From IMG/VR virus record IMGVR_UViG_3300050119_000417, positions 1 to 42,320 of that record: 42,320 nt of DNA. The stretch is one strand, 5' to 3'. Of the stretch, positions 6,884 to 37,591 are shown in pieces (positions within the stretch are counted from its first letter, which is position 1; every line of letters begins with the position of its first letter). The DNA is from a virus. Made by a program: the position numbers and the translations under genes. Under the pieces are notes generated by a model. The model ran no database searches and was not told the origin of the DNA. It saw nothing but the letters and a program-made list of their open reading frames with translations.

Positions 6884-9105
6884 AAGGGCATGGGATAGAT
6901 CGCCGGAAGTTCGGCAATGGGGGTGTTTTTCGTGACGAGGTCCGTCCAGGTCTTTTGGGTGATGACCGGTTGACCGTTGCTGTCCGGGACGGAAGTGAAA
7001 ATAACGCGTCGAAAAAGAGTCTGGTTGGGAGGCGTGGCACTGTCGTTTTCAACAATGCCGCCCGCCGTCCAGGGCAGCGCAGCGGGGTCGTAATCGGTGT
7101 GCCCCTGGCCGAAACTGTGGATGGTCGGCCCGCTGGCCACGAGGGCCGTCACGGTACCGAGCAGCCAACCCGTGTCGTTGGCGTCGAGCGGGAACCAGGT
7201 GTTGAGACCGGTGACGGCGATAGTGTCGTAAAGATTCTGCGATTTGAGCAGGTTGCTGTTAAGTAGTACCATCGCTTGAAAAGTGAAGCCCGGCCCGAGG
7301 CTTCCCGGCGTGATCCGCGAGACGACCTGGAAGGGAAACGCCTGGGGAAGCATGGGCGGTCCGTCAATGGTCCCCTGCGGCGCGTGGTTGCTGCCCTGGA
7401 CCTTCACGCCTGGCGTGATGGCGTCGGTCCGGCTGTTAAGCTTGAAACTGGGCAGGAGGCCCCGCAGGGCGCGGAGCAGCTCGACGCGCTCGTGCAGGTT
7501 GAGCGTCCGGGGCGGCCCCAGCTTCACCTTGGTGATGCCCGTGTCGATATTCTCCGTGATCGAATAAAGGGCCGCGTTCATCGTCCGCCACTCGGGCCGT
7601 CCGTCCGTGGTATTGAAGGTGTTGCCCAGGTTGATCCACCGGCTGCACTCCACTTCGGTCGTTTCGATGTGCCCGTCGAAGTGCAAAACGCTCAGCTCCG
7701 ATTGCATCGCCTGCGCCATGCCGACCGGCACCGGCTCGCTCAGGGACCAGTCGGTCAGTTCCTCGTAGGTCTGCGTGGCCGCGTTCGTCGCCTTGATCTT
7801 GAAATATTTGACGATGGAGCCGCCGCTGAAATAAGCCGCCGTGCCCGGTGCCGTCCCTGCGTAGCTCAGCGTCACCGCCATCAGGATCGTGGCGGCGAAA
7901 ACGCCGTCGTTGGTGGCCATCCAATCGCTCACCGTGCCGCTGATCAGTTCCTGGGTCAGCGCGCCGAGGCTGAAACCGGCCGGTGGCGCGGTGGCGGCCG
8001 GATCGTCCGGGTCGAGCGAGATGACGATATTATCGACGCTGATGTGCGCCGTATCCAGCCCCAGGTCGGTCATCCATTTCAGGCGCTTGATCACCCAGGG
8101 CGCGGCGATAACGGAGGCGGCGCTAGTGGGAATCTCCTTCACCGTCACCGGCTGCTTCTGGAAGGCCTCGCGACCGCCAACCAGGTCCACTGTCGTGACC
8201 AGGCTGTCGAAGCCGTTGTCGGGAGCGGTGAGCGGGAATTTATCGACGGTCAAGCAATCGAGCGACACGCCGTCGATGACATTGGTTTCCTCGTATTTGG
8301 CGATGACGGCGGTGACCAGCAAATCGTCGCGCGAGTCGATGTCCCAATCGGTCACCTCGATGGGCAGCCCGGAGGTGGCGAGGATCGGGAGCGCGACGGC
8401 CACGTGGCCCGCCCGTTGCGAAAAATGCATGGTCGGCGGCGTCGTCCTATAGTCCACCCGCTGGATCAGGCTCGGCACGAACTTGGCCATGCTCTTGATC
8501 AGCTGGTCGCAGAACATGTCCTTGACCTCGATGAACGGGACGATGGTGTCGGGCGTCATCAGCCCGATCTGGAAGGGAACGAACGGGGCGGGCAGGCCGC
8601 TGACCGGGTCCACGTAGGCCGCCGCCGCCGCCAGCAGATAATTGAGGACCGTCGTCATCATCTGGCCGAGGTGCATCTTGGTGCCGTCGATGTTCTGCCC
8701 GACGATGATCCGGCTCTTGGTCGTGGTGATGAGCACGGAGACGATCCCGTTGGTCGAGTACCACTGCATCTGGAACGGCAACCGCGTCAGCCAGCACCAT
8801 GGGCCCCAAATCTCGTATTGCACCGACTCGGCCTTGCCGCTGGCCCGGCGCGGCGTCTTACCCACGATGCCGCGAAAATAAATGGACCCGTCCGGGTGGG
8901 TGATCACGACCCACGCCTTCTTGGCGAAGAGGAGATCGGCATCGACCGGCTGGGCGGGCGCGGTGAAGGTGCATTTGTCGGTAGTGAACGTCTCGAACTC
9001 GCCCACGAGCTGCGACAGCCCCCACGCCTCGAAATCCTTCACCACCGGCGCGGGCGCGGGAACCGCCACCGTGGGCGGCGGGAAATAAGTCAGCGTCCAG
9101 CTCAT
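6880..9105 (-). CDS. Phage tail hub / tail-associated protein candidate
   Basis: A 741-residue protein directly downstream of the tape measure gene, with 4-base overlaps on both sides (9102-9105 and 6880-6883). The N-terminal part has a barrel-like pattern seen in tail hub proteins: DKCTFTAPAQPVDADLLFAKK, then VVITHPDGSIYFRGIVGKTPR and SVQYEIWGPW. The middle has long beta-rich segments, including an ITDLGLDTAHISVDNIVISL-like stretch. No peptidoglycan hydrolase motif was seen. Function is inferred from gene order (tape measure, then hub) and from the hub-like N terminus, not from a firm family match. Confidence 0.65.
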   Translation of the reverse strand: MSWTLTYFPPPTVAVPAPAPVVKDFEAWGLSQLVGEFETFTTDKCTFTAPAQPVDADLLFAKKAWVVITHPDGSIYFRGIVGKTPRRASGKAESVQYEIWGPWCWLTRLPFQMQWYSTNGIVSVLITTTKSRIIVGQNIDGTKMHLGQMMTTVLNYLLAAAAAYVDPVSGLPAPFVPFQIGLMTPDTIVPFIEVKDMFCDQLIKSMAKFVPSLIQRVDYRTTPPTMHFSQRAGHVAVALPILATSGLPIEVTDWDIDSRDDLLVTAVIAKYEETNVIDGVSLDCLTVDKFPLTAPDNGFDSLVTTVDLVGGREAFQKQPVTVKEIPTSAASVIAAPWVIKRLKWMTDLGLDTAHISVDNIVISLDPDDPAATAPPAGFSLGALTQELISGTVSDWMATNDGVFAATILMAVTLSYAGTAPGTAAYFSGGSIVKYFKIKATNAATQTYEELTDWSLSEPVPVGMAQAMQSELSVLHFDGHIETTEVECSRWINLGNTFNTTDGRPEWRTMNAALYSITENIDTGITKVKLGPPRTLNLHERVELLRALRGLLPSFKLNSRTDAITPGVKVQGSNHAPQGTIDGPPMLPQAFPFQVVSRITPGSLGPGFTFQAMVLLNSNLLKSQNLYDTIAVTGLNTWFPLDANDTGWLLGTVTALVASGPTIHSFGQGHTDYDPAALPWTAGGIVENDSATPPNQTLFRRVIFTSVPDSNGQPVITQKTWTDLVTKNTPIAELPAIYPMPL

Positions 9106-10934
9106 GGATGATTGAGGTTTTGCAGCCCATGCCCGTGCTCTTGCTGCTTTGCCTTAATTTGAGTCAGCTGCTGGGCGACGCCGGAATTGATCTGGGTCTG
9201 GGTCGAGATATGCTGTCCCATCAAAGCCAGGAGATCGGTCAGCAGCTTGGAGGTGTGGCCCTGGTCCTTCTCGATCAGGAGATGCATCGCCTTGATCGTG
9301 TCCTTGTTGCCGCTCGCCTCGATGGTCCCCTTGGCCTTGTCGATTTGCTCGGTGTCCGACTTTTTCCCCGTCGAGTCCGATTTCCTTTTGTCCTCCGAGC
9401 CGATCTGACCGGCTTTGCCCCGAGCGTCGACCCGCGCTTTTTCGGCGTCGGAAATCAGCTCGTCTCTTTTGTCCTGCGAGAGATTGCCGGGGCCAGCGGC
9501 CGCGCCTTCCCTGGCCTTGCGTTCGAAGCCCTGGGCGATGAGTTCGCCGATGGCCAGCTCCGCCTTTTCCCGGGCGGCCGGCTTGGTCTTGTCGTCGGCG
9601 ATGTCCTGCTGAGCGTTGATCTTGGTCTTGTTTCGGGCCGTGAAATCATCATCGCCTATCGTCTGATTCTCCGTCTTGTTTTTCTCGGCCAAACCCGCCT
9701 TGGCATTCGCAGCGGCCAGCGAAAGGTTGTCCCGCTCGCGGCGCAGATTCTCGATGACCTCCGACTGCTCCTTGATCTGGTCGGCCAGGCCGTCCAGCTT
9801 CGCCTGGTTCTTGTCGATGTCCGCCTTCAGGGTATCAACCGGCCTCGTCATGGCTTTCGCCTGCGCCCCTTCCGTGGCCAGATCGAGCAGATGCTGCGCG
9901 TAGGACACTTCCCCTTTGTCTTTTTTGGTCAAACTATCAATTTCATCTTCTGTGGACGTGCCGCTGCCTTCAAGCCCACTTCGGTGGAAATTATAGGCGT
10001 CCGTGGCGTTTTTGAGCTGCTCGGTCAGCGCGGCGATGGCCTCCTTGAAGTCGTCGTCCTTGCCGGGATCGATGCCGGCCGCCTTTCTTTCGATCTCCGC
10101 CTTGTGTGCTGCATCCTGTAGGCGATCGTACTCGGCCTGCCGCTTTTTCAGGGTGTCCTGGGTCGAGCTGTACTCGGCGCTCTCGCGCTGTTGCACGCCG
10201 TAGGCATGCGCCTGGTCCAGCATGTTTTTCTGTTCGTCGGAGATGGCCGCGTTCTGCCCTGAAAGCCCGGCGTACTTCTGTTTGATCGCGGCCTCGCCCG
10301 CCGCGCCGCCCGTGTTTTTGGCCAGCTCCTCCAGCTCCTGTCCCTTCAGGATTTCATCCGTCCGTTTTTTTTGCAGGTCGATGGCCGCGTTGAGCAGGGA
10401 AAGGACCTTGCCGCCGTATTCCTCCATCCGCTTGAAATTGGCTTCGATGGGGGCCAGGGCCGCGTCCTCCTTGGCCAGCGCGTCTTCCGCAGCCTTTCCC
10501 TGCGCCACGATGGAGGCCGTGAGCTTGTCCGCCGAATCCTTGGTGTCGTCGATTTTCGCTTGGCTGGCCGAAAACCTCTCGAACATGGGAATGCCCAGCG
10601 AAACGATCAACGTCAGCGCCATGGCGATGGGAGCCAGGGGCCCGAGCATGCCCTCGAACATTTCCGTGGCGACAAAGCCCTCTGCGGCGACACCGCCAAT
10701 GGCTTCCGTGCCGCCCTGCCCCAGCCGCATGAGGCCTTCGAGCAAATGCGTGACCGAGCGCCGGTTGCTCAGCACCGAGGCATCGACCTTCGCTCCCGCC
10801 GCGGCGGCGGTGGCCGCGCCGGCCTCGGTCTGTTTCTCGACCTGCTTCAGGCCGTCGACGGTTTTGTCGACGCCCGGCTGCACGCCCGAGGCGTCGATGC
10901 TGGTGACGATTTTGAATTGATCCAGGTAGGCCAT
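9102..10934 (-). CDS. Tail tape measure protein
   Basis: A 610-residue, mostly helical protein. The N terminus has VDKTVDGLKQVEKQTEAGAA-type helices, then a hydrophobic stretch near residues 95-115 (MLGPLAPIAMALTLIVSLGI), and a long charged, Ala/Lys/Glu-rich coiled-coil region (about 130-560). This is the usual make-up of tape measure proteins, which span the tail lumen and fix tail length. At about 1.5 angstrom per residue the tail would be near 90 nm. The start overlaps nothing upstream (gap of 3 bases), while its stop overlaps the hub gene by 4 bases. Confidence 0.8.
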   Translation of the reverse strand: MAYLDQFKIVTSIDASGVQPGVDKTVDGLKQVEKQTEAGAATAAAAGAKVDASVLSNRRSVTHLLEGLMRLGQGGTEAIGGVAAEGFVATEMFEGMLGPLAPIAMALTLIVSLGIPMFERFSASQAKIDDTKDSADKLTASIVAQGKAAEDALAKEDAALAPIEANFKRMEEYGGKVLSLLNAAIDLQKKRTDEILKGQELEELAKNTGGAAGEAAIKQKYAGLSGQNAAISDEQKNMLDQAHAYGVQQRESAEYSSTQDTLKKRQAEYDRLQDAAHKAEIERKAAGIDPGKDDDFKEAIAALTEQLKNATDAYNFHRSGLEGSGTSTEDEIDSLTKKDKGEVSYAQHLLDLATEGAQAKAMTRPVDTLKADIDKNQAKLDGLADQIKEQSEVIENLRRERDNLSLAAANAKAGLAEKNKTENQTIGDDDFTARNKTKINAQQDIADDKTKPAAREKAELAIGELIAQGFERKAREGAAAGPGNLSQDKRDELISDAEKARVDARGKAGQIGSEDKRKSDSTGKKSDTEQIDKAKGTIEASGNKDTIKAMHLLIEKDQGHTSKLLTDLLALMGQHISTQTQINSGVAQQLTQIKAKQQEHGHGLQNLNHP

Positions 10935-10937
10935 GGA

Positions 10938-11171
10938 TTATTTTTTGTGAATGAGCCAGCGCCGGTAATCGGCGATTAATTTCAGCGTCCCGATCTCCAT
11001 CTCCTCAATGTGCGCGTAGCGTTTGGCCAGCAGCCCCTCGATCAGCGCCCGCACTTTAGCGATCGCCTTTTCCGTGTTCTCCGGCCCGCGCCACCGTTCC
11101 TTCATCGTCTCTTCCATCAGGTAGGCCACGTCCGCCGCTTCCTCCGGCGTCAGGGCGACAATCGATTTCAT
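10938..11171 (-). CDS. Small helical phage protein upstream of the tape measure gene
   Basis: 77 residues, MKSIVALTPEEAADVAYLME to RRWLIHKK, predicted all-helical and charged. The start codon overlaps the stop of the tail-fibre gene by one base (TAATG at 11171). Small proteins just before a tape measure gene are often tail assembly chaperones, but there is no family match and no visible frameshift site, so this is only a positional guess. Confidence 0.7.
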   Translation of the reverse strand: MKSIVALTPEEAADVAYLMEETMKERWRGPENTEKAIAKVRALIEGLLAKRYAHIEEMEIGTLKLIADYRRWLIHKK

Positions 11172-13804
11172 TACGGCGCTGGCTCGAAGATTTCCCAGGC
11201 GACGACGCTGGTGTCGGTGGCGTCGGCGCTGGTGATGGTGAAGGAGGTGGCCGCCGTCCGGGCCGTGACCGCGATTTCCTTCGGCACGGTCACCGTGCCC
11301 AGGCTTTGCGTGGTGAGGAAAATCCGGCTATTCGCGGTGACCGCCGTGTCGCTCACCGTCACGGTGCCGGCCACGAGCGTGGCCGTGCCCTGCTTGGCGT
11401 TGGAGCCCTCGGCGACGCCCAGGCCGCCGTAGACCGAGAGGTGCCCGGTCGGATCAAGCGACGCCTGCTTGGTGTCGCTGTTGAGATTGCAAAAATAGAG
11501 TGTGTTGTTGTAGGAGACGACCGCCGAGTTCGCCGGATTTCCAAAGGAAGTGTCGGTGCGATAACTCAAGGCCAATTGGAGCGCGCCCGAGGCGTTCGTG
11601 GCCCGGATGCGAACCTCCGGGTTGGTGGCCGCGCCCAGATACAGGTAGCCTTGGAAACTCAGCTTGAAGAACGTATCCGAAACAAGGCCGGTGTCCGCGA
11701 CAAACACATTTCCGGCGTTCGTGACGTTGTTAAAGTTGAAATTCTGATCGCCCGCCATGGAGCCGTAAGTATTGCCCTGGTCCCCGTAGATCGTGGCGAC
11801 GGGCAGGCTTGTCTTGGCGATGCCGTAGCGCAGGAAGGGCCGCGTATTGCCCTGCATGGACGAGGCGTATTGCAGCGCGAACTGCGAGTTGATGTAGCTC
11901 GCCCAGACGGCATAGCCCTGGTTGGTGAAGTGGGGCTGCGCGGCCTGGTTGCGATAGATCGCCCCGGAGATCGCGAACTGCGGGCAATTGGCTAGGTCGA
12001 AAAACGTCACCCCCGCCGTTGCGCCGTTGGCGTAGGTGGACTGGATCCACTGGTTAAGCAGCAACCGGTTCTCGTCGTACTGCTGCTGGTTGTAACCGGG
12101 CGTGGTGTAGATGCAGTGGACCACGGAAAAAACGGCTACGCTGTCGCCGTCGGTCAGGGCGGCGTTGACCGTGCTAGTGATGTTGCTTTCGATGGTGGTC
12201 AACGGCGGCGTGAACTTGAACGTGGTCATGGCCGCGTTGACGAGCGCGCCGGTGTTGAGCGTGACGCTGGAGGAGGTCGCGGATGAAACCGTGCCGAGCA
12301 AGATGCCGTTGCTCCAGGCGTTGTAGCCGGTCGTTGCGGTCAGGGCCGCGCTGCCCACGCTCACGCCGGTGTTGATCGTCATGGCGGAAATCGTGGCGTT
12401 GCCCGTCACCGCCGTGCCGCTCGACGTGACGCCGCCGACATAAATATCGTTGCTGCCGTAGGCCATGGCGAACCAGGTCGGCACGCCGGTCACGGCTTCC
12501 GACAACAGATGCGCCGAGGTGGCGAACGCCGTGTTCGTGCCGTAGGTGGTCGAGGCCGCGAAAATGATCGTCTGGCCCGCGTGCGACCCCGTCGCCGCCT
12601 GCGAGAGCGTCACGGTCGAGCCGGAGATCGTGCCGGTCGTCCCCGGCTTGATGTCGCCGCTGGAACTGGCGAGGACCATCGTGCCCGTCATGCCCGTGGT
12701 CGAGCCGGTGATGGTCAGGGTCGTCGAGGAGGCCGTGGTGCCCGTGGTCGAGCCGCCGCTCTGGTTGTACTGAGTGAGGCCGTTGGCGGTCGTCTGGCCG
12801 CTGATGCCCAGGTTGTAGACGGTCATATTTTGACCGGCTGAACTCGTCGCGAAATAACCAGGCCACGAGGTCAGGCACCCCGTGAAGTTTCCAGTTGAGG
12901 TGACAGGCGGATTGGCCCCCACGCCGGACGTGAACGAATCGCCGTACGCGATCAGGTTGCCGGCCGGGCCGTTCGGCAGCACCACGTTGGGCGCATAGAA
13001 ACTGCCGGGAGCCGTGACATTGAAATCGGCCACCGTGCCGCCCGCGCCGTTGTTCATCAGCGCGCCGCCGATGGTCAGGAATCCGCCCGAGGTGTTCACG
13101 GCCTGCGCGCCCGCCGTGAGGACGCCCGTGCCCGCGCCGGTGAGGTTAGCGTAGGGGAACGATCCACTCGTCACCGTGCCGAGCGTGGTGATGCTCGACG
13201 CGCCGGTCCACGTCCCGCCCGAAATGGCCGCGAGGTTCGCGTTGAAGGTCTGCACCGTGCTGCCGATATAATTGGCGAGAAGGCCCGCTGGCAGAGCGCC
13301 GCCGCCATCGAGCTTGACCAGGCCGTTGGCCGTGTTCGTGGCATGGGAAAAATCGAGCACGCCGGAAGAGATGGTCAGGTTTCCGGAAGCGTTCGAGCCG
13401 ATAGTGATCCCGCCGCCGCCCGTCGCGCTGATGGTGATGGCGGGCCAGCTGCCACTGAAAGCCACGCCCGATCCGGCGATGAAGGGATTCGATGTGGCCA
13501 GGGTTCCGAGCGCCGCGCTATAGCCCTGCACGGTGGAACCGATGGCGGCGGACTTGAGGATCGTCGCGTCGTAGCCTTCCACGGTCGAACCGATGGCGCT
13601 CGAGGGTATCATGCCGGTCTGGCAGTAGGTTTTCCACTGCGCGGCGGTGAGCTTGACCGACACGCCGCCCTGCACGGCGGGCGCGAAATCGGCGTCGCCG
13701 ATGGTCGTGCCGGCCGGAAGCGCCGAGGTCTTGATGATGGTTTGCGCCGACGCGGGCAACGCGAGCGCGGCGATGAAGAGAAGAGTGAAGAGGCTGTTTT
13801 TCAT
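11171..13804 (-). CDS. Tail fibre-like protein with Sec signal peptide and SGNH/GDSL hydrolase domain
   Basis: 877 residues from the ATG at 13804; longer readings upstream are out-of-frame overlap with neighbouring genes. Layout: signal peptide MKNSLFTLLFIAALALPASA, cleaved after about residue 20-21; tail-fibre-like repeats (IGSTVEGYDA, IGSTVQGYSA, IGSTVQTFNA, residues 71-190); an SGNH hydrolase domain from about 283 to 640 with block I GDSF (S290), block II G about 333, block III GSND (N452, D453) and block V H625; then a C-terminal beta domain (about 790-877, TATLVAGTVTVSDTAVTA to AWEIFEPAP) typical of virion fibres. Two beta-rich inserts (about 355-420 and 460-530) split the hydrolase. It lies between tail tube and tape measure genes. 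A signal peptide on a virion tail protein is very unusual. Likely role is deacetylation or ester cleavage of host surface glycan. Confidence 0.8.
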   Translation of the reverse strand: MKNSLFTLLFIAALALPASAQTIIKTSALPAGTTIGDADFAPAVQGGVSVKLTAAQWKTYCQTGMIPSSAIGSTVEGYDATILKSAAIGSTVQGYSAALGTLATSNPFIAGSGVAFSGSWPAITISATGGGGITIGSNASGNLTISSGVLDFSHATNTANGLVKLDGGGALPAGLLANYIGSTVQTFNANLAAISGGTWTGASSITTLGTVTSGSFPYANLTGAGTGVLTAGAQAVNTSGGFLTIGGALMNNGAGGTVADFNVTAPGSFYAPNVVLPNGPAGNLIAYGDSFTSGVGANPPVTSTGNFTGCLTSWPGYFATSSAGQNMTVYNLGISGQTTANGLTQYNQSGGSTTGTTASSTTLTITGSTTGMTGTMVLASSSGDIKPGTTGTISGSTVTLSQAATGSHAGQTIIFAASTTYGTNTAFATSAHLLSEAVTGVPTWFAMAYGSNDIYVGGVTSSGTAVTGNATISAMTINTGVSVGSAALTATTGYNAWSNGILLGTVSSATSSSVTLNTGALVNAAMTTFKFTPPLTTIESNITSTVNAALTDGDSVAVFSVVHCIYTTPGYNQQQYDENRLLLNQWIQSTYANGATAGVTFFDLANCPQFAISGAIYRNQAAQPHFTNQGYAVWASYINSQFALQYASSMQGNTRPFLRYGIAKTSLPVATIYGDQGNTYGSMAGDQNFNFNNVTNAGNVFVADTGLVSDTFFKLSFQGYLYLGAATNPEVRIRATNASGALQLALSYRTDTSFGNPANSAVVSYNNTLYFCNLNSDTKQASLDPTGHLSVYGGLGVAEGSNAKQGTATLVAGTVTVSDTAVTANSRIFLTTQSLGTVTVPKEIAVTARTAATSFTITSADATDTSVVAWEIFEPAP

Positions 13805-13806
13805 AG

Positions 13807-14283
13807 TTAAGTTTCCGTTCCAAATGAGTCGCCCGATTCCGTTCCCAGGCTGACGCCCGGTTCCGTTCCGAGGGTTCCTCCCGGCGAATCCGCCGAGGGT
13901 TGTCCCACGAAGAAGGTCAGGCGAAAGCCGTAGCTCACGCCGTTGAAATCCTCCAGCACCTCGAAGGGGCCGAGGACCGCACCCGGATAGGTGACCGAGC
14001 TGCCGTTGATCGTCTTGACCAGGTCGCCCGAATCGGGCAGCGATCCGTACATCGTTTCCGCCGCGATCAGGGCGGCTTCCAACGTGGGTCCGGGGGTGGG
14101 AGCGATCACACCGGTCAGCGTCACCAGACGGTTGCCGCGCGGGATCGTCGTGGCATAGCGGGCGCGGATCGGCTCCGACTTCTGCGTGAGGGGCACGCCC
14201 TTGGGTTTGAAGCCCGTCACGGCGTCGGTTCCCCCGTCCGGGGGTTCCGCCGCGATGACAACGCCGTTGTAGGTGAGCTTCAT
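13807..14283 (-). CDS. Phage tail-region protein with C-terminal octapeptide repeats (unknown)
   Basis: A 158-residue protein starting MKLTYNGVVIAAEPPDGG. The middle (IPRGNRLVTLTGVIAPTPGP, then VLEDFNGVSYGFRLTFFV) looks like a small beta-barrel tail protein. The C terminus, from about residue 137, carries an eight-residue repeat GTExGxx(L/F): GTEPGVSL, GTESGDSF, GTET. The same repeat occurs in the protein at 15513-16274. It lies between the tail-tube candidate and the tail-fibre gene, so a tail assembly or tail-tip role is likely, but no family is recognised. Confidence 0.75.
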   Translation of the reverse strand: MKLTYNGVVIAAEPPDGGTDAVTGFKPKGVPLTQKSEPIRARYATTIPRGNRLVTLTGVIAPTPGPTLEAALIAAETMYGSLPDSGDLVKTINGSSVTYPGAVLGPFEVLEDFNGVSYGFRLTFFVGQPSADSPGGTLGTEPGVSLGTESGDSFGTET

Positions 14284-15512: not shown

Positions 15513-16274
15513 TTAGGAGATGATTTGAAAGGCCAGGTCACTGGCCACGTGGGTGGGTTGGTTGAAGGCCACGGCGCGCAGACATGCGCCCAGGGCAAAG
15601 GGGGTGGATTCGGTGCCGATCTCGCCGCCGCCTTCGGTGCCGAGGCCGTCGCCCGATTCGGTGCCGACAACCGCGCCGAAAATCTTGGCGGCGGGATTGC
15701 CGGGGCAGGGATAGCTGCCGTCCGTCGTGTAATAAATCGTCGCGCCAGGGGTCGCGCAGGTGAGGGTCACGCCCTCGGTCGAATTGCCCGCGATGAACGG
15801 GAAGGCGCATTTCGGCAGGGGCTTGAGCTTGATCGAGCACTTGACCGTGACCGTCCGTTCGCGCTCGCCGCTGGTCCAGATGATCGGGTCGCCCTTGTGC
15901 GCGGTGATCGTGGTGTTGATGTCCTGCATGACGTAGTTGTGCAGGAGCTGCAGGACGGAAAGTTCGAGCCGCTGGACGCTGATGCCGGTGCCGCCCGTGC
16001 CGTCGTTGACCATGGGCTTGGTGATGCAGCGGATATAGATTTGCGGGTCGAGCATGGGGCCGACCGCGCCGGGATGCTCGATGTCGTAGAACGGTTCGCA
16101 GATCAAAATGACCGCGCCTTTCTTGCCGCCCTTTTTCGTGACAGTGCCGAGGGCCTGCGCCAGGTCGGCGTCGGTGACGCCCTTCTTTTCCTGAAGCACG
16201 ACGACCGTGGCGGTGGAGAGATCGTTGTCGATCCGGTCGAAGATATTTTGCTCGAGCTGTTCCAGCGGCGTCAT
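15513..16274 (-). CDS. Tail terminator/completion-type protein with chitobiase-like beta domain
   Basis: 253 residues. The N-terminal part (MTPLEQLEQNIFDRIDNDL, about 1-140) resembles Gp37-type minor tail proteins. The C-terminal part, from about 165, resembles the small domain found at the end of chitobiases: CATPGATIYYTTDGSYPCPG, then ACLRAVAFN. Between its strands is an octapeptide repeat, GTESGDGL-GTEGGGEI-GTEST (about 203-222). The start overlaps the upstream lipoprotein gene by 4 bases (16271-16274). Role in closing the tail or joining it to the head is inferred from order. Confidence 0.65.
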   Translation of the reverse strand: MTPLEQLEQNIFDRIDNDLSTATVVVLQEKKGVTDADLAQALGTVTKKGGKKGAVILICEPFYDIEHPGAVGPMLDPQIYIRCITKPMVNDGTGGTGISVQRLELSVLQLLHNYVMQDINTTITAHKGDPIIWTSGERERTVTVKCSIKLKPLPKCAFPFIAGNSTEGVTLTCATPGATIYYTTDGSYPCPGNPAAKIFGAVVGTESGDGLGTEGGGEIGTESTPFALGACLRAVAFNQPTHVASDLAFQIIS

Positions 16275-16522
16275 TGGCTTAGCTCCCTCGCATCGGACTG
16301 CATTTCCCTGACGATGGATTTCGCGCGAACGGGATCGGTGCAGGTGTCCAGCTCCTTGCCCAATTCGTTGATCCGGTCCTCTAGATTATCGTGACGAATA
16401 GCCTCTTGCTCCAGAGGAGACTCGACCGCGTTTTCATATTCTTGAGTCCAGCGCTCACGGGTCGCTTCGCTGGCGCATGCGCAAAGAAAGGAGCATATGA
16501 GAAGGAGCGCCATGGATTTCAT
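16271..16522 (-). CDS. Small phage lipoprotein within the tail operon
   Basis: An 83-residue protein from the ATG at 16522, beginning MKSMALLLICSFLCACAS. The hydrophobic stretch followed by LCAC is a lipobox with candidate lipidated Cys at 14 or 16, so the product should sit in a membrane facing the periplasm. The rest is a charged helix (ERWTQEYENAVESPLEQEAI). It overlaps both neighbours by 4 bases (16519-16522 and 16271-16274), so it is translated with head-tail completion genes, an odd place for a lipoprotein. It may act in superinfection exclusion, but that is a guess. Confidence 0.75.
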   Translation of the reverse strand: MKSMALLLICSFLCACASEATRERWTQEYENAVESPLEQEAIRHDNLEDRINELGKELDTCTDPVRAKSIVREMQSDARELSQ

Positions 16523-17052
16523 TGGGCTCCTCCAAGCGCAGCGACCACGGCCTTGCTTAGCGCCGAGTTGTATTTCGGCAGGCGCTCGTTGATGGAGGAC
16601 CGGACGAAGGAGCGCTCCGGCAGGTGCATGTGGCGCGTGAACGCCTTGACGAAGCTGATGCCGTTGGCGGAGAGCTTCTTTTTCTTCACGCTGAATAAAT
16701 CCTGTCGGCGGTTGCGGCGCACGAAGCCTTTCACCTGGACGTCGCCGTCGAAGCCGTACTCGTGCACGCCCGCGTAGGCGACGTTGCTGCCGATGGCCCC
16801 GGCTATGAGCGGTCCGCTGACGACGGCGTCGGTGCGGTGCAGGCTCCGGCGCAGCAGGCCGGTGCGCACGCCCAGCGTCGTCGGACCCGACCCGCTGAGC
16901 TTGTTGCGCTGGGCGTAACCGATGGTCAGTTCGTTCTGGAGATCGAGCGCCCTGGCCATGGCCTGCTCGGCGCGGACCGGCGCGTCGGGCAGGCCGCGCA
17001 AAAGCGCCAGCGCCTCCGGCTTGAGTTCCAGGCGCAGATAATAATCGCTCAT
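16519..17052 (-). CDS. HK97 gp10-like / phage virion morphogenesis protein
   Basis: 177 residues. The central VAYAGVHEYGFDG motif (about 92-104) followed by MHLPERSFVRSSINERL (about 142-158) is typical of the HK97 gp10 / phage tail completion family, whose members plug or complete the head-tail junction. A basic KKKK stretch lies between. It overlaps the connector gene upstream and the lipoprotein gene downstream by 4 bases each, in the usual completion-protein position. Confidence 0.75.
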   Translation of the reverse strand: MSDYYLRLELKPEALALLRGLPDAPVRAEQAMARALDLQNELTIGYAQRNKLSGSGPTTLGVRTGLLRRSLHRTDAVVSGPLIAGAIGSNVAYAGVHEYGFDGDVQVKGFVRRNRRQDLFSVKKKKLSANGISFVKAFTRHMHLPERSFVRSSINERLPKYNSALSKAVVAALGGAQ

Positions 17053-25688: not shown

Positions 25689-26099
25689 TTACTTGTTGCT
25701 GATCCGCCTGACTTCGCCGCGCAGCTCGCCGACGCTGTTGGTGATCTCCAGCGAAAAGTCTCCGAGCTTGTCGCCGATCCGCTCGACCACGTGGGCGATG
25801 TCCTTGTGGAGCAGGCGTCGTCCCTCGATGGCCTCGACGCGCGACTTCTCCATCTCGTCTTTATTCTCGATGCGGGCCGCCTCGATCTTGCTTTCGACGT
25901 GCTTGAAGCGCCGGTCCGTTTCGGCCTTGTCGGCGTAGCTGGCCTGCGGCGCGACGACCAGAGGCTGGACGATGCCCTTCTTCTGGAAGTGCTCGATGAT
26001 CTTGAGGAAGATCAGGACCATCGCTCCCAGTGCGGCCAGGGGCACGATGAAATCGGTCAGCTGCGTGGAGGTGGGCGCGGCGAACTCGGCGAAGATCAT
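25689..26099 (-). CDS. Membrane-anchored coiled-coil protein (i-spanin or DUF2730-like candidate)
   Basis: 136 residues: one membrane helix near residues 19-35 (IVPLAALGAMVLIFLKIIE), then a long charged coiled coil (about 50-136) ending GELRGEVRRISNK. This is the shape of an inner-membrane spanin (Rz) and also of Mu gp25 (DUF2730). It overlaps the endolysin-like gene by 4 bases (26096-26099), placing it in the lysis block. Outer partner candidates are the lipoproteins at 26853 and 27453. Confidence 0.6.
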   Translation of the reverse strand: MIFAEFAAPTSTQLTDFIVPLAALGAMVLIFLKIIEHFQKKGIVQPLVVAPQASYADKAETDRRFKHVESKIEAARIENKDEMEKSRVEAIEGRRLLHKDIAHVVERIGDKLGDFSLEITNSVGELRGEVRRISNK

Positions 26100-26659
26100 G
26101 ACGCCTCCTTACTGCCCGGTGCGGCCGCCTGGCCGCTCGGTTGGACGCCGGGCGCGCCCTGCTCGCCTTTCGACCCGATGTCCTGCGGACGGCTGTTGGC
26201 GGAAACGCCGTCCGGTAAAATCGCGTCCACGCTGACCAGGTCGTTGGTGGCGAGATCGAGCGCGGCCATCGCGCCGGGGGAAAGATCGATCAGCCGGTCG
26301 GTGTCCGGGTTCGGGCCCCAATCGACGGCCTGGACGAAAATCGTTTTGCCTTCCGCGTTGGTGACGGCGAGGAGCGCGCGGCGCACGGAGCTGCGGCTGA
26401 CTCCGGGCAGGATTTCGCCGGGCTGGCCCTCGAAGGTTCCGTAGGCCCAGCGCATGGCACAGTAGAACGAGGCGGGCTTGAGCGTGCGGGCCAAGCCGAA
26501 GCCGGTGGAGATGGGACCGAAGCAGCGCCCGAACCAGTCCTCGGAAAGGTCGCCGAGGCCGACGCAGGAGAGCGGTTCCAGCCGTCCGACGCCGTCGTCG
26601 TTGGGACCGCCGAATTCGCTGCACTTGCCGCTGCCGAGCGGGATGACCTTGACGCTCAT
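26096..26659 (-). CDS. Double-psi beta-barrel (RlpA-like) endolysin candidate
   Basis: 187 residues from the ATG at 26659. The middle contains TIFVQAVDWGPNPDTDRLID (D113), followed by LSPGAMAALDLATNDLVSVD, matching the RlpA-type barrel pattern (D-x-GP ... R-x-IDLS-x-AA ... V). RlpA cleaves bare glycan strands in peptidoglycan. The N-terminal part (GKCSEFGGPNDDGV) is also typical, as its H/Y-type partner residues lie there. The C terminus (about 150-187) is a Gly/Pro/Gln tail, GSKGEQGAPGVQPSGQ. No signal peptide, so export would need the holins. It overlaps the holin gene at 26656-26659 and the spanin candidate at 26096-26099. Confidence 0.6.
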   Translation of the reverse strand: MSVKVIPLGSGKCSEFGGPNDDGVGRLEPLSCVGLGDLSEDWFGRCFGPISTGFGLARTLKPASFYCAMRWAYGTFEGQPGEILPGVSRSSVRRALLAVTNAEGKTIFVQAVDWGPNPDTDRLIDLSPGAMAALDLATNDLVSVDAILPDGVSANSRPQDIGSKGEQGAPGVQPSGQAAAPGSKEAS

Positions 26660-26856
26660 CGGTCGCTCTCCTCTCCGAAAATCATGAGGATGGCCAGGAC
26701 CGGCCAGAGCACGACGCCCAGGCCCAGCGCGAAAACGACCTCCAGCAAATCGGGCGGCGGCGGCAACTTGCCCTCCCTGATCTGGCGGTAGACCTGGCAC
26801 GACTTGACGGCGGCGACGGCCAGGCCCAGCGCGAAATAAAGTTCGAGCAGGATCAC
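26656..26856 (-). CDS. Two-helix membrane protein, holin candidate
   Basis: 66 residues with two hydrophobic helices: ILLELYFALGLAVAAV (2-18) and VVFALGLGVVLWPVLAILMI (about 41-59), separated by a polar loop with KLPPPPD. The tail is short and charged (FGEESDR). Size and topology fit a class II holin. It sits directly upstream of the endolysin candidate with a 4-base overlap on both sides. Confidence 0.55.
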   Translation of the reverse strand: MILLELYFALGLAVAAVKSCQVYRQIREGKLPPPPDLLEVVFALGLGVVLWPVLAILMIFGEESDR

Positions 26857-27239
26857 AAACCCGCCTTCTGCAACAGCGTCGGCGCGGGGTGCTCCGCCGA
26901 TCTGGACCAGGTCGCCATCAAACCCCAGTTATCGACAGCCTCTTCGGTGAGGTCGTACTCCGAGCCGTTGATCGTGACGCCGAAATCTTTTCCGCGCGGC
27001 GGCATCAGGTCCTGGCCGTGCTGGCTGAGTTCCCAATTGTAAGTGTCGTGGCCTTCGGAGGTGAAGGCCGCGCCGATATGCGTCTTGCCGTCCGCCGCAT
27101 AGAGCCAGTGAACGAAGCCGACCGTGGCGTGGGGCAGCGCACTTCCGGGAACATCCTTCTCGATTACTGTTCCGGTGGAACAGCCCATCAGGAAGCAGGC
27201 CAGGGCGCTGAGAGCCAATTGAGCGAGGGCGGTTTTCAC
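26853..27239 (-). CDS. Phage lipoprotein (o-spanin or immunity candidate)
   Basis: 128 residues starting MKTALAQLALSALACFLMGC, a signal peptide with lipobox LMGC (Cys about 20). The mature part has a VGFVHWLYAADGKTHIGAAF segment and a WELSQHGQDLMPPRGKDFGV segment. It lies between a small protein gene and a holin candidate, overlapping both by 4 bases. An outer-membrane spanin partner is possible by position, but the folded-looking mature part is longer than most o-spanins. Confidence 0.6.
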   Translation of the reverse strand: MKTALAQLALSALACFLMGCSTGTVIEKDVPGSALPHATVGFVHWLYAADGKTHIGAAFTSEGHDTYNWELSQHGQDLMPPRGKDFGVTINGSEYDLTEEAVDNWGLMATWSRSAEHPAPTLLQKAGL

Positions 27240-27452: not shown

Positions 27453-27923
27453 CTACGGGTTGTTGGGAACCGCCGCCAGGGTGGAGAGAGCGCCGACCGG
27501 CACGGCCAGGGCGGGTGCCGCGGCGGCGGCCGTTGCGATGACGCCGGGATCGCTCAGGGCTGCGGTTTGCGCCGCTTGGATTCCAGCGGGGCTGGCTCCA
27601 TTCGCCGCCGCCGTGTTACCCGCAGCCACGACGGACGCGGCCAGCTTATTGGCCACGGCTGCCGCCTGCGTCTTGATCGCCGCATCGGCGGACGCGCCCA
27701 AGGCATCCACGACGGCTTCATCGGGCGTGTTGTGCGTTGCCACGAGCCCCGCATTCAGAAGCGATTTGGTGATCGCGCCGCCTGTGGCCGCGTTCGCCGT
27801 CTCGTAACCACCGGCAAAGGTCCACGCCAGTGATTCGGCCTCCGTCATGGTTTCCTGAAATTGGGTCGAAGAGCAGCCGGTGAAGGCGACGATGAGGAGG
27901 AGGGACAGGATTTTCTTTTTCAT
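27453..27923 (-). CDS. Ala-rich phage lipoprotein
   Basis: 156 residues beginning MKKKILSLLLIVAFTGCSST: signal peptide with lipobox FTGC (Cys 17). The mature part is low-complexity, Ala-rich and helical (AAVANKLAASVVAAGNTAAA), ending VPNNP. Overlaps the second holin candidate by 4 bases (27920-27923). Possible o-spanin or envelope protein. Confidence 0.65.
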   Translation of the reverse strand: MKKKILSLLLIVAFTGCSSTQFQETMTEAESLAWTFAGGYETANAATGGAITKSLLNAGLVATHNTPDEAVVDALGASADAAIKTQAAAVANKLAASVVAAGNTAAANGASPAGIQAAQTAALSDPGVIATAAAAAPALAVPVGALSTLAAVPNNP

Positions 27924-30663: not shown

Positions 30664-30848
30664 GCCCGGCCCTGCAAGCCCTGGTCGGCGATCCTGGCGT
30701 GCAGCGGCGGCTGGCCGCGATGCGGGGCGAGGCGCTGCTCGCGGAGCGCGGCACCGCGACGATCCGCCAGCCGATCTCGAAAACGCGCAAGCCGTGGAAT
30801 CATAACGAGCGCGAGATCGTCGCCTCGCTGGCGAGGTTGCGCCCATGA
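30660..30848 (+). CDS. Small early protein immediately before the transposase (unknown)
   Basis: 62 residues, MSPALQALVGDPGVQRRLAA to REIVASLARLRP. Helical and basic, with a TRKPWNHNEREIV segment. It overlaps its upstream neighbour and the transposase by 4 bases each (30660-30663, 30845-30848), so translation of the transposase is coupled to it. Confidence 0.6.
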   Translation: MSPALQALVGDPGVQRRLAAMRGEALLAERGTATIRQPISKTRKPWNHNEREIVASLARLRP

Positions 30849-32923
30849 CCGCGATGCCGCTGGCCCTGGCCGACTCGATCAAATCGATCAGCCTGCCCGC
30901 CGAGGTGCGGAAGGAGACCGGCCTGCTGGCCGCGCTACTCAAGGAGGCGCTGGCCGCGCCGCACGGGGCCAAGGGCCGGGCCTACGAGTCCGCCGCGAGG
31001 CAGATGTGCGCCGCCGGTCATTCGATCACCGCCGATGGCATTCGCGCCCTGCTGCCCCACTTCAAGCGCGAAGGCTGGCACGCCCTGATCGACGGACGCA
31101 AAGTCCCGCACGACGACAACAAGCTGCCGCGCGGTTTCGTCAAGGAGGTGAAGCGGCGCTTCGACCGCCAGCCGCGCTCGCGGAAGGACGCCTGGGAAAC
31201 GCTGGTCAACGAATGGCGCGCGGGCAAAACCATCCCCGGCTACCGGGGCGCGAGCTACGTCACGCAGGACGATCCGAAGGGCGAGAAGGCTTTTCCCGAG
31301 GCCGATCCGTACCAGCCCTATCCCTCGGGCTGGTCCTACAAGCATCTCTGCCGGGTCTGCCGGTCCTCCGCCTTTGAGCGGGTGGCCATGACCATCGGCC
31401 TGGGCCGGGCCAAGGCGCTGCACGGCCCGAAGAAATTCACCACACGGGCCGGGCTGCACCTCTTTTCGCATCTGGCCTGGGACGACGTGGAGCACGACCA
31501 GATCGTTCACCTCCTGGACCGGACCATGCGCCAGCAATGCCGGGCGGTGGACATCGGCGTGCTCGATGTTCTCTCCGCCGACCGGTTCGATTGGGGCACG
31601 CGGCCCATGATCAAGAAGTTCGACCCGGACCAGGACCGGATGGTGAAGCAGAAGTTGAAGGAGGAAAACGTCCGGTTCCTCTATGCCAAGACACTCCATC
31701 AATACGGGTTCAATCCGCGCGGAACCTGTCACGTCATAGAGCGGGGCACGTCCACCTTTCGCGACCGGGTCATGCAGATCACCCGCGACCGGATGAAGGA
31801 AATTTACGGGGAACCGGACGGCAAGCCGATCATCACCTTCGACCTGGGCGGATGGACGGGCAAGGAACAGGTCGTGGCCGGAATGTTCCAGGGCAAGGGC
31901 GGCGGAAATCCCCGGCACAAGCCGTGGCTCGAATCGATCCACAACCTGATCCACAACCGGCTGGCGTCGCTGCCCGCGCAGACCGGGCCGGACGTGGACC
32001 GCCGCCCCGAATTTCTCAACGGCATCCAGGACGAGACGGGCGTGCTGCTGGCGATCTGTCCGAACCTGACCGACCACCAGATCAGGCAGCTGCAATTCCC
32101 GACGCTCGAATATTATTCCGAGTTCCTTCCGCTGCTGCGCCACGTCTACGACGCCATCGCGCGCCGCACGGACCATGCCCTGGAAGGCTGGGCCGACTGC
32201 AAATTCTTCACGCGGGATTTCCGCTTCCATCGCGGCAGCCAGGAATGGCTGAGCGAGAACCAGTACCTGGCGCTGCCGCCCGCCGACCGCTCCATGCTGG
32301 CCCAGGCGGTGAAGCGGGACGGCGCGTGCGAGCGGCCCCGCAGGCTCTCGCCCCGCGAGGTGCGGCTGGCCCGGATGCACGAGCTGGTCAAGCCGCCCGA
32401 GTCGCTCATCGCCGAAATTCTTTACGAGGACCTGGCTCGGGAGCAGAAGGTCAAAAACCACTACTTCAAAATCCAGGACCAGGAGATTTCGCCGGAGCCG
32501 GTTTATTACGATTCGAGCATCCGCACCCTGGAAGGCAACCAGATCGAGCTGACGGACGGGGAGCATTTCGAGGTGGTCGTCAATCCCTTCGACCTGGACC
32601 GGCTTTGGGTTTACGCGGGAGGCAAGCGGGGCAAGGGCGCGTATCTCGGCCTGGCCTCGCGCACCTACACGCCGTGCCGCGGCGACGAAGCCGGTAACAA
32701 GCGCGCCCTGGGCATCAACGAAAGCCGTTACGCGGCGATTCGCGCCCCGCTGGTGGACCGTCATTCCAACCTGGCCGTGGAGGAAGCGGCCCGCGCGCAG
32801 CACAACGCCGACGTGATGGCCGGGCCGCGCAGCGAAATCGAAGCGCAGGTCGAAGAGGACCGCGCGCTGCGCACCGCCGACCTGGCCGCGCCCGCTCAAG
32901 CGCCCGATTTTGACGCCCTTTAA
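30845..32923 (+). CDS. Mu A-type transposase (DDE, rve fold)
   Basis: 692 residues; Mu A has 663. The enzyme cuts and joins the phage ends to target DNA. N-terminal DNA-binding part (about 1-200): helical, with RAYESAARQMCAAGHSITAD, resembling Mu-type end-binding domains. Catalytic core: WDDVEHDQIVHLLDRT (first acid probably D218), PIITFDLGGWTGKEQV (D333), and RHKPWLESIHNLIHNRL (E363). The C-terminal beta-barrel domain has VVVNPFDLDRLWVYAGG then GAYLGLASRTYTP (about 570-620). It is followed 3 bases later by the Mu B-like ATPase. D333-E363 is 30 residues, shorter than in Mu A. Confidence 0.88.
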   Translation: MTAMPLALADSIKSISLPAEVRKETGLLAALLKEALAAPHGAKGRAYESAARQMCAAGHSITADGIRALLPHFKREGWHALIDGRKVPHDDNKLPRGFVKEVKRRFDRQPRSRKDAWETLVNEWRAGKTIPGYRGASYVTQDDPKGEKAFPEADPYQPYPSGWSYKHLCRVCRSSAFERVAMTIGLGRAKALHGPKKFTTRAGLHLFSHLAWDDVEHDQIVHLLDRTMRQQCRAVDIGVLDVLSADRFDWGTRPMIKKFDPDQDRMVKQKLKEENVRFLYAKTLHQYGFNPRGTCHVIERGTSTFRDRVMQITRDRMKEIYGEPDGKPIITFDLGGWTGKEQVVAGMFQGKGGGNPRHKPWLESIHNLIHNRLASLPAQTGPDVDRRPEFLNGIQDETGVLLAICPNLTDHQIRQLQFPTLEYYSEFLPLLRHVYDAIARRTDHALEGWADCKFFTRDFRFHRGSQEWLSENQYLALPPADRSMLAQAVKRDGACERPRRLSPREVRLARMHELVKPPESLIAEILYEDLAREQKVKNHYFKIQDQEISPEPVYYDSSIRTLEGNQIELTDGEHFEVVVNPFDLDRLWVYAGGKRGKGAYLGLASRTYTPCRGDEAGNKRALGINESRYAAIRAPLVDRHSNLAVEEAARAQHNADVMAGPRSEIEAQVEEDRALRTADLAAPAQAPDFDAL

Positions 32924-32926
32924 TTT

Positions 32927-34066
32927 ATGAACACCGCACTCGCCGAACGAACCCCTCTCAACCTCACCGTCGTCAACCCGCCGCAGGAACCGGCCGCTGG
33001 AGCCCCTGCGTCTGTCCACGCCACGCGCTGGAGCGTGCGCATGGCGGATGTCTACGCGGCCACGAAAGAACTGCCGGAGGACCATCGGGGCGAGATTCGC
33101 TGGCTCGATCATCACGCGCGGTCGAAGAACATGACCCTGCGCGAGATCGCGGCGCTGTTGAAGGACGCGCGGGGCGAGGCCTACAGCGACAACACGGTCT
33201 ACAAGGCGATGACCGGTCGGCACGAGGCGAAGCTGGACAACTTCGTGCGCGCCATCGCCCGTTACCGGCTGCCGTTTGCCGCGCGGCCCTCGGAGGAAAA
33301 GATTCCCTACGTGCCGATCTCGCAATCGACCAGCATCATTTCCTACGTCGAGAAGTGCGAGAAGTACCAGCGGATGGGCCTGGTCTTCGGCCGCAACCAG
33401 ATCGGCAAGACGACGGCGTTCAAGCAGCTGCGCATCAGCCGTCCCTTCGGCCAGGTGCAGATTTTCCTCGTTCCCGCCAACGGTTATTTGTCGCAGCTCG
33501 TTTCCTCGATGTGCATGGAGAAGAAGATCGCCACGGGCGACTCGACCGGCGAGCAGAAGGAGCGGCTGATGCGCACCTTCGACGCGTCGATGATCCTGGT
33601 CTTCGACGAGATGGACCAGTGCTACATGGGCGCGCCGGGCAAGAAGCCGCGCACCGACACCTTCGAGTTCGTGCGCCAGATCCACGAGCGGACCGGCGCG
33701 ACGGTGATCGAGTGCGCCACGCCGGCCGTCCACAACGAGATGATCACCGGGGTGGACCGGGTCCTCTTCGAGCGGACGATCCACCGTTCGCTGCCGCCCT
33801 ACATCATCGGCGAAACGATCCCGGAGAGCGACCTGAACGCCTTCGCGGAAATCCTCGGGCTGGACCCAGCGGACGGCACGGCGCTGACCTTGCAGACGAA
33901 GGTGATCGACAAGGAAGGGCTCGGCTACTGGCTGATGTACCTCCAGTGCGCGCGGGGCATCGCCGCGAAGAAAAGCCGTCCCGTGATCTGGGGCGACGTG
34001 ATCCATGCCGACGACGAATTTCTCAAGATGGTCAGCGGCGGCAAGAAGAAGGGCGGGGGCAAGTGA
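32927..34066 (+). CDS. Mu B-type AAA+ ATPase, transposition target protein
   Basis: 379 residues. The N-terminal HTH-like part (about 65-100) has NMTLREIAALLKDA and SDNTVYKAMTGRHEA. AAA core: Walker A GLVFGRNQIGKTTAFKQL (K161, T162), Walker B MILVFDEMD (D227, E228), then a TGATVIECATP strand (about 250) and a C-terminal helical bundle. Such proteins coat target DNA and bring it to the transposase, also giving target immunity. Directly follows the transposase gene; its stop overlaps the GTG of the next gene by 4 bases. Confidence 0.88.
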   Translation: MNTALAERTPLNLTVVNPPQEPAAGAPASVHATRWSVRMADVYAATKELPEDHRGEIRWLDHHARSKNMTLREIAALLKDARGEAYSDNTVYKAMTGRHEAKLDNFVRAIARYRLPFAARPSEEKIPYVPISQSTSIISYVEKCEKYQRMGLVFGRNQIGKTTAFKQLRISRPFGQVQIFLVPANGYLSQLVSSMCMEKKIATGDSTGEQKERLMRTFDASMILVFDEMDQCYMGAPGKKPRTDTFEFVRQIHERTGATVIECATPAVHNEMITGVDRVLFERTIHRSLPPYIIGETIPESDLNAFAEILGLDPADGTALTLQTKVIDKEGLGYWLMYLQCARGIAAKKSRPVIWGDVIHADDEFLKMVSGGKKKGGGK

Positions 34067-36862: not shown

Positions 36863-37591
36863 ATGAAAACCGCAGCTCCTCTCAAAACTCATCGCCTTCT
36901 CGACCTCAAAAAACTCACCCTGGCCCACGGCTCGCATAAAAGCGCCGACGACGGCATGTGCATCCTGGAGGCCGTCTCCTTCATGGCCGGGGAAACTTTC
37001 GGCGACCATCCGAAGTGCGCCTGCCCGGTGATCAGCGCCATGCTGCGGAGCTGGAATGATCGTCTCAACACTGAGGACCGCCAACAACTGAAGCGCTACA
37101 TTCTGCCGTTGGTCGGCAGCAAGAGCACGCGGGCCGTCGAGATCAAACGCGGCTATCTCGCCGCCGACTGGGCGATCCGCATCGCGACGCCGATTGCGCT
37201 GCGCGCGGCCAAGCTCGATACCCACGCCGAGGCGTTGGAAAAACTCCCCGAGATCATTGACGTGAAAACCCGCGATTTCGCCTGGCCGGTGATTGTCGCA
37301 GCCCGTGACGCGGCGCGCAAAGCGCGCCGCAATTTAGGATGGCCATGGTACAGGGTGGAGGCGGCGGCGGTGGTGGCGGCGGCGGCGGTGGCGGCGGTGG
37401 CGGTGGCGGTGGCGGCGGTGGAGGCGGAGGCGGTGGAGGCGGAGGCGGTGGTGGCGGCGGTGGCGGTGGCGGCGGTGGAGGCGGTGGAGGCGGTGGAGGC
37501 GGAGGCGGTGGAGGCGGTGGAAAAAATACGCGCTGACCTGACGGTCAGCGCTCATGACCTCGCGGCCCGCATGCTTGCGGTGAAGGAGTAA
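36863..37591 (+). CDS. Phage protein with a V/A/E low-complexity tract
   Basis: 242 residues with AAAGGAAACC before the ATG. The N-terminal part (about 1-160) is a normal-looking helical domain: DLKKLTLAHGSHKSADDGMC, SFMAGETFGDHPKCACPVIS, AMLRSWNDRLNTEDRQQLKR, WAIRIATPIALRAAKLDTHA. Residues about 165-220 are a run of Val, Ala and Glu encoded by an uninterrupted GGN tract (37354-37521) read one base out of phase as GTG/GCG/GAG. The end (KIRADLTVSAHDLAARMLAV) is again normal. Function unknown; similar phage proteins have Ala-rich repeats at this place. Confidence 0.65.
   Translation: MKTAAPLKTHRLLDLKKLTLAHGSHKSADDGMCILEAVSFMAGETFGDHPKCACPVISAMLRSWNDRLNTEDRQQLKRYILPLVGSKSTRAVEIKRGYLAADWAIRIATPIALRAAKLDTHAEALEKLPEIIDVKTRDFAWPVIVAARDAARKARRNLGWPWYRVEAAAVVAAAAVAAVAVAVAAVEAEAVEAEAVVAAVAVAAVEAVEAVEAEAVEAVEKIRADLTVSAHDLAARMLAVKE
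37354..37521 (+). repeat. Uninterrupted 56-unit GGN trinucleotide tract
   Basis: Every triplet from GGT at 37354 to GGA at 37521 is GGC, GGT or GGA, 168 bases in all, with no break. Read in the gene frame it codes Val/Ala/Glu; in the next frame it is poly-glycine, which opens the reading 37339-37536. It could form G-rich structures and is prone to slippage in steps of three bases. Confidence 0.9.

Follow-up and report, generated by a model that had tools for sequence, protein, structure and literature searches.

A Sec signal peptide ahead of the N-terminal tag of a tail fiber-like phage protein

Tail fibers are generally taken to be cytoplasmic proteins, and an export signal on one of them is odd, since the assembly of virus particles takes place within the cell. 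Such a signal is found in the IMG/VR virus record IMGVR_UViG_3300050119_000417, of which positions 1 to 42,320 were analyzed (hereafter the window, meaning this whole stretch of 42,320 nucleotides). A reading of the sequence alone had described here a fiber-like protein with a signal peptide and an interrupted SGNH hydrolase, an observation which is confirmed below, and had offered two explanations: either the product is exported, or the signal-like helix has a role in the virion. The locus thus raises the question of whether the signal peptide is used and, if so, whether the exported protein still belongs to the particle.

The fiber-like gene, its operon and its domains

The gene extends on the minus strand from an ATG at 13804 to a stop at 11171 and encodes, as judged from its translation, Pfam matches and operon position, an 877-aa tail fiber- or tailspike-like protein with a Sec signal peptide and an SGNH hydrolase. 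The coordinates given in the sequence-only reading (11171-13804) were right, and the strand is added here. The gene lies in a tail module alongside structural genes, all on the same strand: a 158-aa protein (13807..14283) is encoded directly upstream in the operon, across a gap of 2 nt, and a 77-aa protein (10938..11171) directly downstream, its start overlapping the fiber stop (TAATG), while the portal, capsid and connector genes belong to the same run. No promoter above chance was found before the fiber gene. This tight arrangement and the lack of such a promoter mark it, by position, as a late structural gene and not as an independently expressed lysogeny gene. Its original placement between tail tube and tape measure is plausible from the context, although no profile confirmed either neighbor; the putative tape measure protein (610 aa, 9102..10934, minus strand) is named from position and composition only and had no profile match.

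The element as a whole is a transposable phage, as indicated by a Mu-like pair of transposase and transposition protein (30845..34066, plus strand; PHROGs phrog_310, E 1.2e-5, and phrog_296, E 3e-6). Host genes occupy the left end of the window, and the dnaN found there is 96% identical to dnaN of a Verrucomicrobia genome.

Three further features accompany the structural run. A repeat with 24-nt spacing is common to two nearby structural genes (window positions 13813-13869 and 15607-15678) and reads as G-T-E-x-G-x-x-L/F units (LGTEPGVSLGTESGDSFGTET and GTESGDGLGTEGGGEIGTES). The protein encoded at 15513-16274 (minus strand) contains a partial chitobiase C-terminal/Fn3-associated motif (PGATIYYTTDGSYP, E 1e-7). 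A small ORF in the head-tail connector region (16271-16525, minus strand) is lipoprotein-like (MKSMALLLICSFLCACASEATRERWTQ...); it lies within the terminal part of a longer frame and adjoins the tail completion gene (16519-17052).

The fiber-like protein has virion-type modules at both ends. Its N-terminal fiber tag (KTSALPAGTTIGDADFAPAVQGGVSVKL, residues about 25-52, 13649..13732, minus strand) aligns with a signal-less fiber from another locus, L294 (MADVKISALPSASTLSGTEELPVVQ..., E 2e-5), and the fiber repeats that follow (AIGSTVEGYDATIL / AIGSTVQGYSAAL, residues about 70-98, 13511..13597, minus strand) have DATILKSAAIG-TVQGY in common with the same protein; the alignment of tag and repeat (DATILKSAAIGSTVQGY) begins just behind the L294 start. 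The C terminus (residues 802-877, 11174..11401, minus strand) is a K1-lyase_C tailspike domain, with a Pfam match over 802-873 (E 6e-24) and likeness to PDB 7eea (E 6.6e-6) and to Streptomyces phage tailspikes. Both the fiber repeats and the virion-type C-terminal domain proposed at first sight are thereby borne out. In the sets examined K1-lyase_C is essentially a phage domain, since all 14 control genomes lacked it and a single one of the 388 Verrucomicrobiota genomes contained it. The K1-lyase_C tailspikes of Streptomyces phages and of a cyanophage (7eea) resemble the window protein in this domain and in being modular fibers with an enzymatic middle. They differ in that the middle of the window protein is an SGNH hydrolase, and a signal peptide was seen on inspection in only three of the 80 K1-lyase_C loci examined; in one of these (L339) it precedes a different fiber N-terminal domain, and in the others (L322 and L366) the K1-lyase_C proteins bear a signal peptide and no tag.

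The SGNH hydrolase domain covers residues about 281-645 (11870..12964, minus strand), with inserts at about 347-424 and 457-536. The Ser, Gly, Asn and His of SGNH/GDSL blocks I, II, III and V, all four of which had been claimed, were located in the translation (GDS 288-290 with S290, G333, GSN 450-452 with N452, and H625). In the intact protein the Lipase_GDSL_2 profile matches residues 286-346 only (blocks I-II, E 6e-8), yet removal of the two inserts, glycine/serine/threonine-rich stretches with boundaries picked by eye, yields a core matching positions 1-177 of the 178 in the profile (E 7.5e-13), as expected of a hydrolase split by inserts. There is no support for the inserts as copies of each other (score 63 versus 52 +/- 7.5 in shuffles), and an AlphaFold2 model of the SGNH region (376 aa) had a pLDDT of 31.6, too low for use. 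No full-length relative of the protein was found in the viral contigs or the 388 Verrucomicrobiota genomes, and none of the SGNH region in the viral contigs; a search by way of the neighbors, which looked for the tail tube in viral contigs and for a 741-aa tail gene in phages as well as genome contigs, also returned none.

The signal peptide and its recurrence before the tag

The protein starts with MKNSLFTLLFIAALALPASA, followed across the predicted cleavage point by QTIIKTSALPAGTTIGDADFAPAVQGGVSVK. The signal peptide (residues 1-20, 13745..13804, minus strand) has K2 in its n-region, an uninterrupted hydrophobic core at residues 5-16 and the cleavage site ASA before Q21, and the tag (KTSALPAGTTIGDADFAPAVQGGVSVK) stands directly after the predicted cleavage region. 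With n-, h- and c-regions, an AxA site and a core hydropathy of 3.1, it passes the rule for signal peptides used here and deserves the description of textbook example that it had received. This rule was devised for the present analysis and is not SignalP; the frequencies of signal-bearing genes given below depend on it and on pattern-limited scans. In 233 viral loci the rule let through 1.7% of the phage genes with 100 aa or more, a share that fell to 1.0% at 300 aa or more, and 127 out of 5000 shuffles of window residues 2-41 passed. The absence of an export signal is a usual, if not strictly defining, trait of fibers, from which the window protein departs. This lowers the claim that it is an ordinary member of the tail fibers, not the claim that it is built like one.

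The tag is common in viral contigs, where its consensus (KISxLPxATxxxGxExxPVVQGGVTKK) usually occurs at the very start of fibers and spikes of many architectures, e.g. MADVKISALP... or MANTKISELP...; its pattern also had three matches in the Verrucomicrobiota genomes. A signal peptide precedes it in three of 176 non-redundant tag genes from the samples, whereas about 98% have none and carry the tag a few residues from the start. A share of ~2% is not clearly above the signal-peptide rate of 1.0% in large phage genes, and the argument for a signal in use is one of exact placement and shared gene slots, not of enrichment.

Two targeted pattern scans and the samples together gave 24 loci in which the tag stands directly after the cleavage region of a signal peptide, namely the window and 23 others (L056, L079, L138, L146, L148, L149, L152, L161, L162, L168, L169, L171, L177, L179, L277, L288, L388, L403, L407, L412, L429, L438 and L444). 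This number is a lower bound, the looser motif used for counting having missed other spacings (L079, L161, L177), and the presence of the tag in 24 of 24 reflects searches that required it. The loci range in GC from 0.32 to 0.65, so that their hosts are probably diverse. A small-residue cleavage site follows the hydrophobic core in nearly all of them, and the signal peptides of close relatives (L169/L179, L138/L168) differ in sequence yet remain signal peptides. Recurrence at an exact junction, and sequence change with retention of character, favor the export option of the sequence-only reading. Since the signal recurs exactly before the same fiber start in other uncultured phages, it is probably used.

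The gene slots in which these fibers reside point the same way. In L056, L171 and L407 the signal-bearing fiber follows a gp25-like and a LysM-like gene, and relatives of the same two genes precede a signal-less tag fiber in L040, L301, L025, L254 and L322 (the flanks were matched by BLAST for L056 and L171, and by eye in the case of L407; the labels gp25-like and LysM-like come from reading the sequences, PHROGs having no match for these genes). Residues 17-80 of the signal-bearing L056 protein align with residues 1-64 of its signal-less counterpart in L254 (E 4e-8). The L177 protein, in turn, matches gp67 of Bdellovibrio phage phi1422, an annotated tail fiber, from query residue 22 onward, and both genes lie behind a baseplate wedge gene and the gene for a structural protein. 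Like other fibers tagged with KISxLP, gp67 shares the N-terminal tag with the window protein, and with L177 also the slot, but it lacks a signal peptide (MGIKISQMDVML...). Two further signal-bearing fibers (L412, L403) lie in or beside baseplate wedge genes. Given the occupation of slots of signal-less sister fibers, together with the L056/L254 and window/L294 alignments, the signal peptide looks like a module repeatedly gained by tail-fiber genes.

At least two signal-peptide genes are present in or near the fiber locus at L277:7222-10705, L366:2035-10186, L148:5815-9908 and L403:7649-12009; they include tagged fiber, collagen-like and beta-helix-like proteins, which suggests a whole exported module. 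Oxidative folding or disulfides as the reason for export found no support, the cysteine content of the signal-bearing proteins being no different (no enrichment, p = 0.78). Among the structural genes inspected in the cultured Bacteroidota phages B40-8, P2559Y and SJC25, there was no signal-bearing fiber.

The proposed export of the fiber and its possible place in the particle

The explanation considered best, though its probability is put slightly short of even, is that the gene specifies an exported tail fiber or tailspike, which matures in the periplasm and is joined to the particles when the cell lyses or later, the phage being transposable (Mu-like) and its host a member of the Verrucomicrobiota. 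A cleavable Sec signal peptide would have been placed exactly before a standard phage fiber N terminus. Expressed late alongside the other genes of the tail, the fiber would pass through Sec and be cut after ASA, leaving an N terminus like that of ordinary fibers; it would then fold in the periplasm and attach to tails during lysis or afterwards, and there its SGNH esterase may modify the surface polysaccharide of the host. The position of the tag suggests that it docks fibers to the particle. If it does, the exported fiber is still destined for the particle, and periplasmic maturation with joining at or after lysis is the simplest course, since a fiber sent to the periplasm would meet virions only after lysis. 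An exported protein may also be a virion component: the tag kept at the N terminus, the tailspike domain at the C terminus and the gene slot all indicate a tail fiber.

As a more general proposition, held with slightly less confidence, a minority of tailed phages may export their fibers via Sec, so that assembly is split across the inner membrane, the particle body forming in the cytoplasm and the fibers in the periplasm, the two being joined when the cell lyses. The papers searched contained no example of fiber assembly onto particles after lysis by a periplasmic route, and no description of a tail fiber with a Sec signal peptide was met in the open-licence papers searched, which is weak evidence of absence. 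Phage proteins sent through Sec before lysis are known from Lys44 of fOg44, a Sec-exported endolysin, and from the SAR endolysins (PMC6116005), which are like the proposed fiber in this respect and unlike it in being lysis enzymes with no fiber tag. A few unidentified signal peptides have been noted in two Bacteroides phages (PMC5723332), and the lack of signal peptides in phage hypervariable proteins has been put forward in favor of their origin in phages (PMC6199706).

The main rival, less probable but serious, is a secreted enzyme or adhesin built from fiber parts and lying outside the virion, which would modify the surface glycans of the phage's own host (for receptor removal, superinfection exclusion or progeny release) or bind outside the cell. 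Such a role would suit the clear signal peptide and the intact SGNH residues, and it has a precedent in WceF of Pantoea stewartii, a bacterial enzyme that is exported, resembles tailspikes in its fold and acts on the bacterium's own exopolysaccharide (PMC7949094); WceF differs, however, in being encoded in an exopolysaccharide cluster, outside any phage late operon, and in its Tat signal. The side-by-side occurrence of a signal-less tag fiber and a signal-bearing neighbor in L322, and of several signal-bearing genes in a row in L277 and L366, also fits secretion. On the other hand, it is hard to see what a retained fiber tag would do in a protein outside the virion, and signal-bearing genes occupy the slot of signal-less fibers; in L056 and L407 the signal-bearing gene is the only fiber candidate there, with no other between the baseplate genes and the endolysin. 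The window gene, moreover, belongs to a compact late operon and has no promoter of its own above chance.

An uncleaved hydrophobic segment with a virion or membrane role, acting for instance as an envelope-inserting anchor during infection or as a membrane tether during assembly, is improbable. The domains and the slot do lead one to expect a virion location, and hydrophobic N termini can serve as signal anchors, the SAR endolysins being an example (PMC6116005), but the small-residue cleavage site behind the core in nearly all examples argues for removal of the segment. The virion role first considered for the signal-like helix is weakened further by the signal-less relatives of the same gene slot, which have nothing equivalent. 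Least likely by far, and largely refuted, is a gene-start artefact in which translation begins downstream and leaves the hydrophobic stretch untranslated: the Shine-Dalgarno at ATG1 is weak (GGAA at -12), but the sole alternative ahead of the tag, TTG16, falls within the core and has no visible Shine-Dalgarno, the next (GTG44 and GTG48) lie inside the tag, the conserved alternative start after the hydrophobic part that would have spoken against a signal peptide is missing from L056, L148, L171 and L177, which have no start codon between the first ATG and the tag, and 24 signal peptides at one junction are not expected by chance.

Signal peptides at one exact junction, in the slots of signal-less sister fibers, contradict the cytoplasmic location of fibers as a rule. 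The choice is between phages able to assemble particles across the envelope and phages that repeatedly turn fibers into secreted enzymes, and either outcome matters for the annotation of prophage genes and for the way in which infected cells meet further phages.

Features outside the structural run

Two further lipoprotein-like genes (26853-27239 and 27453-27923, minus strand), with the lipobox-like motifs MGCSTG and TGCSST, belong to the presumed lysis region; close to them is encoded a protein (26096-26800) that matches RlpA weakly. A gene on the plus strand (36863-37591) contains a long low-complexity repeat of GGC/GGT/GGA at 37354-37512, which reads as an Ala/Val/Glu-rich tract and is possibly variable in length.
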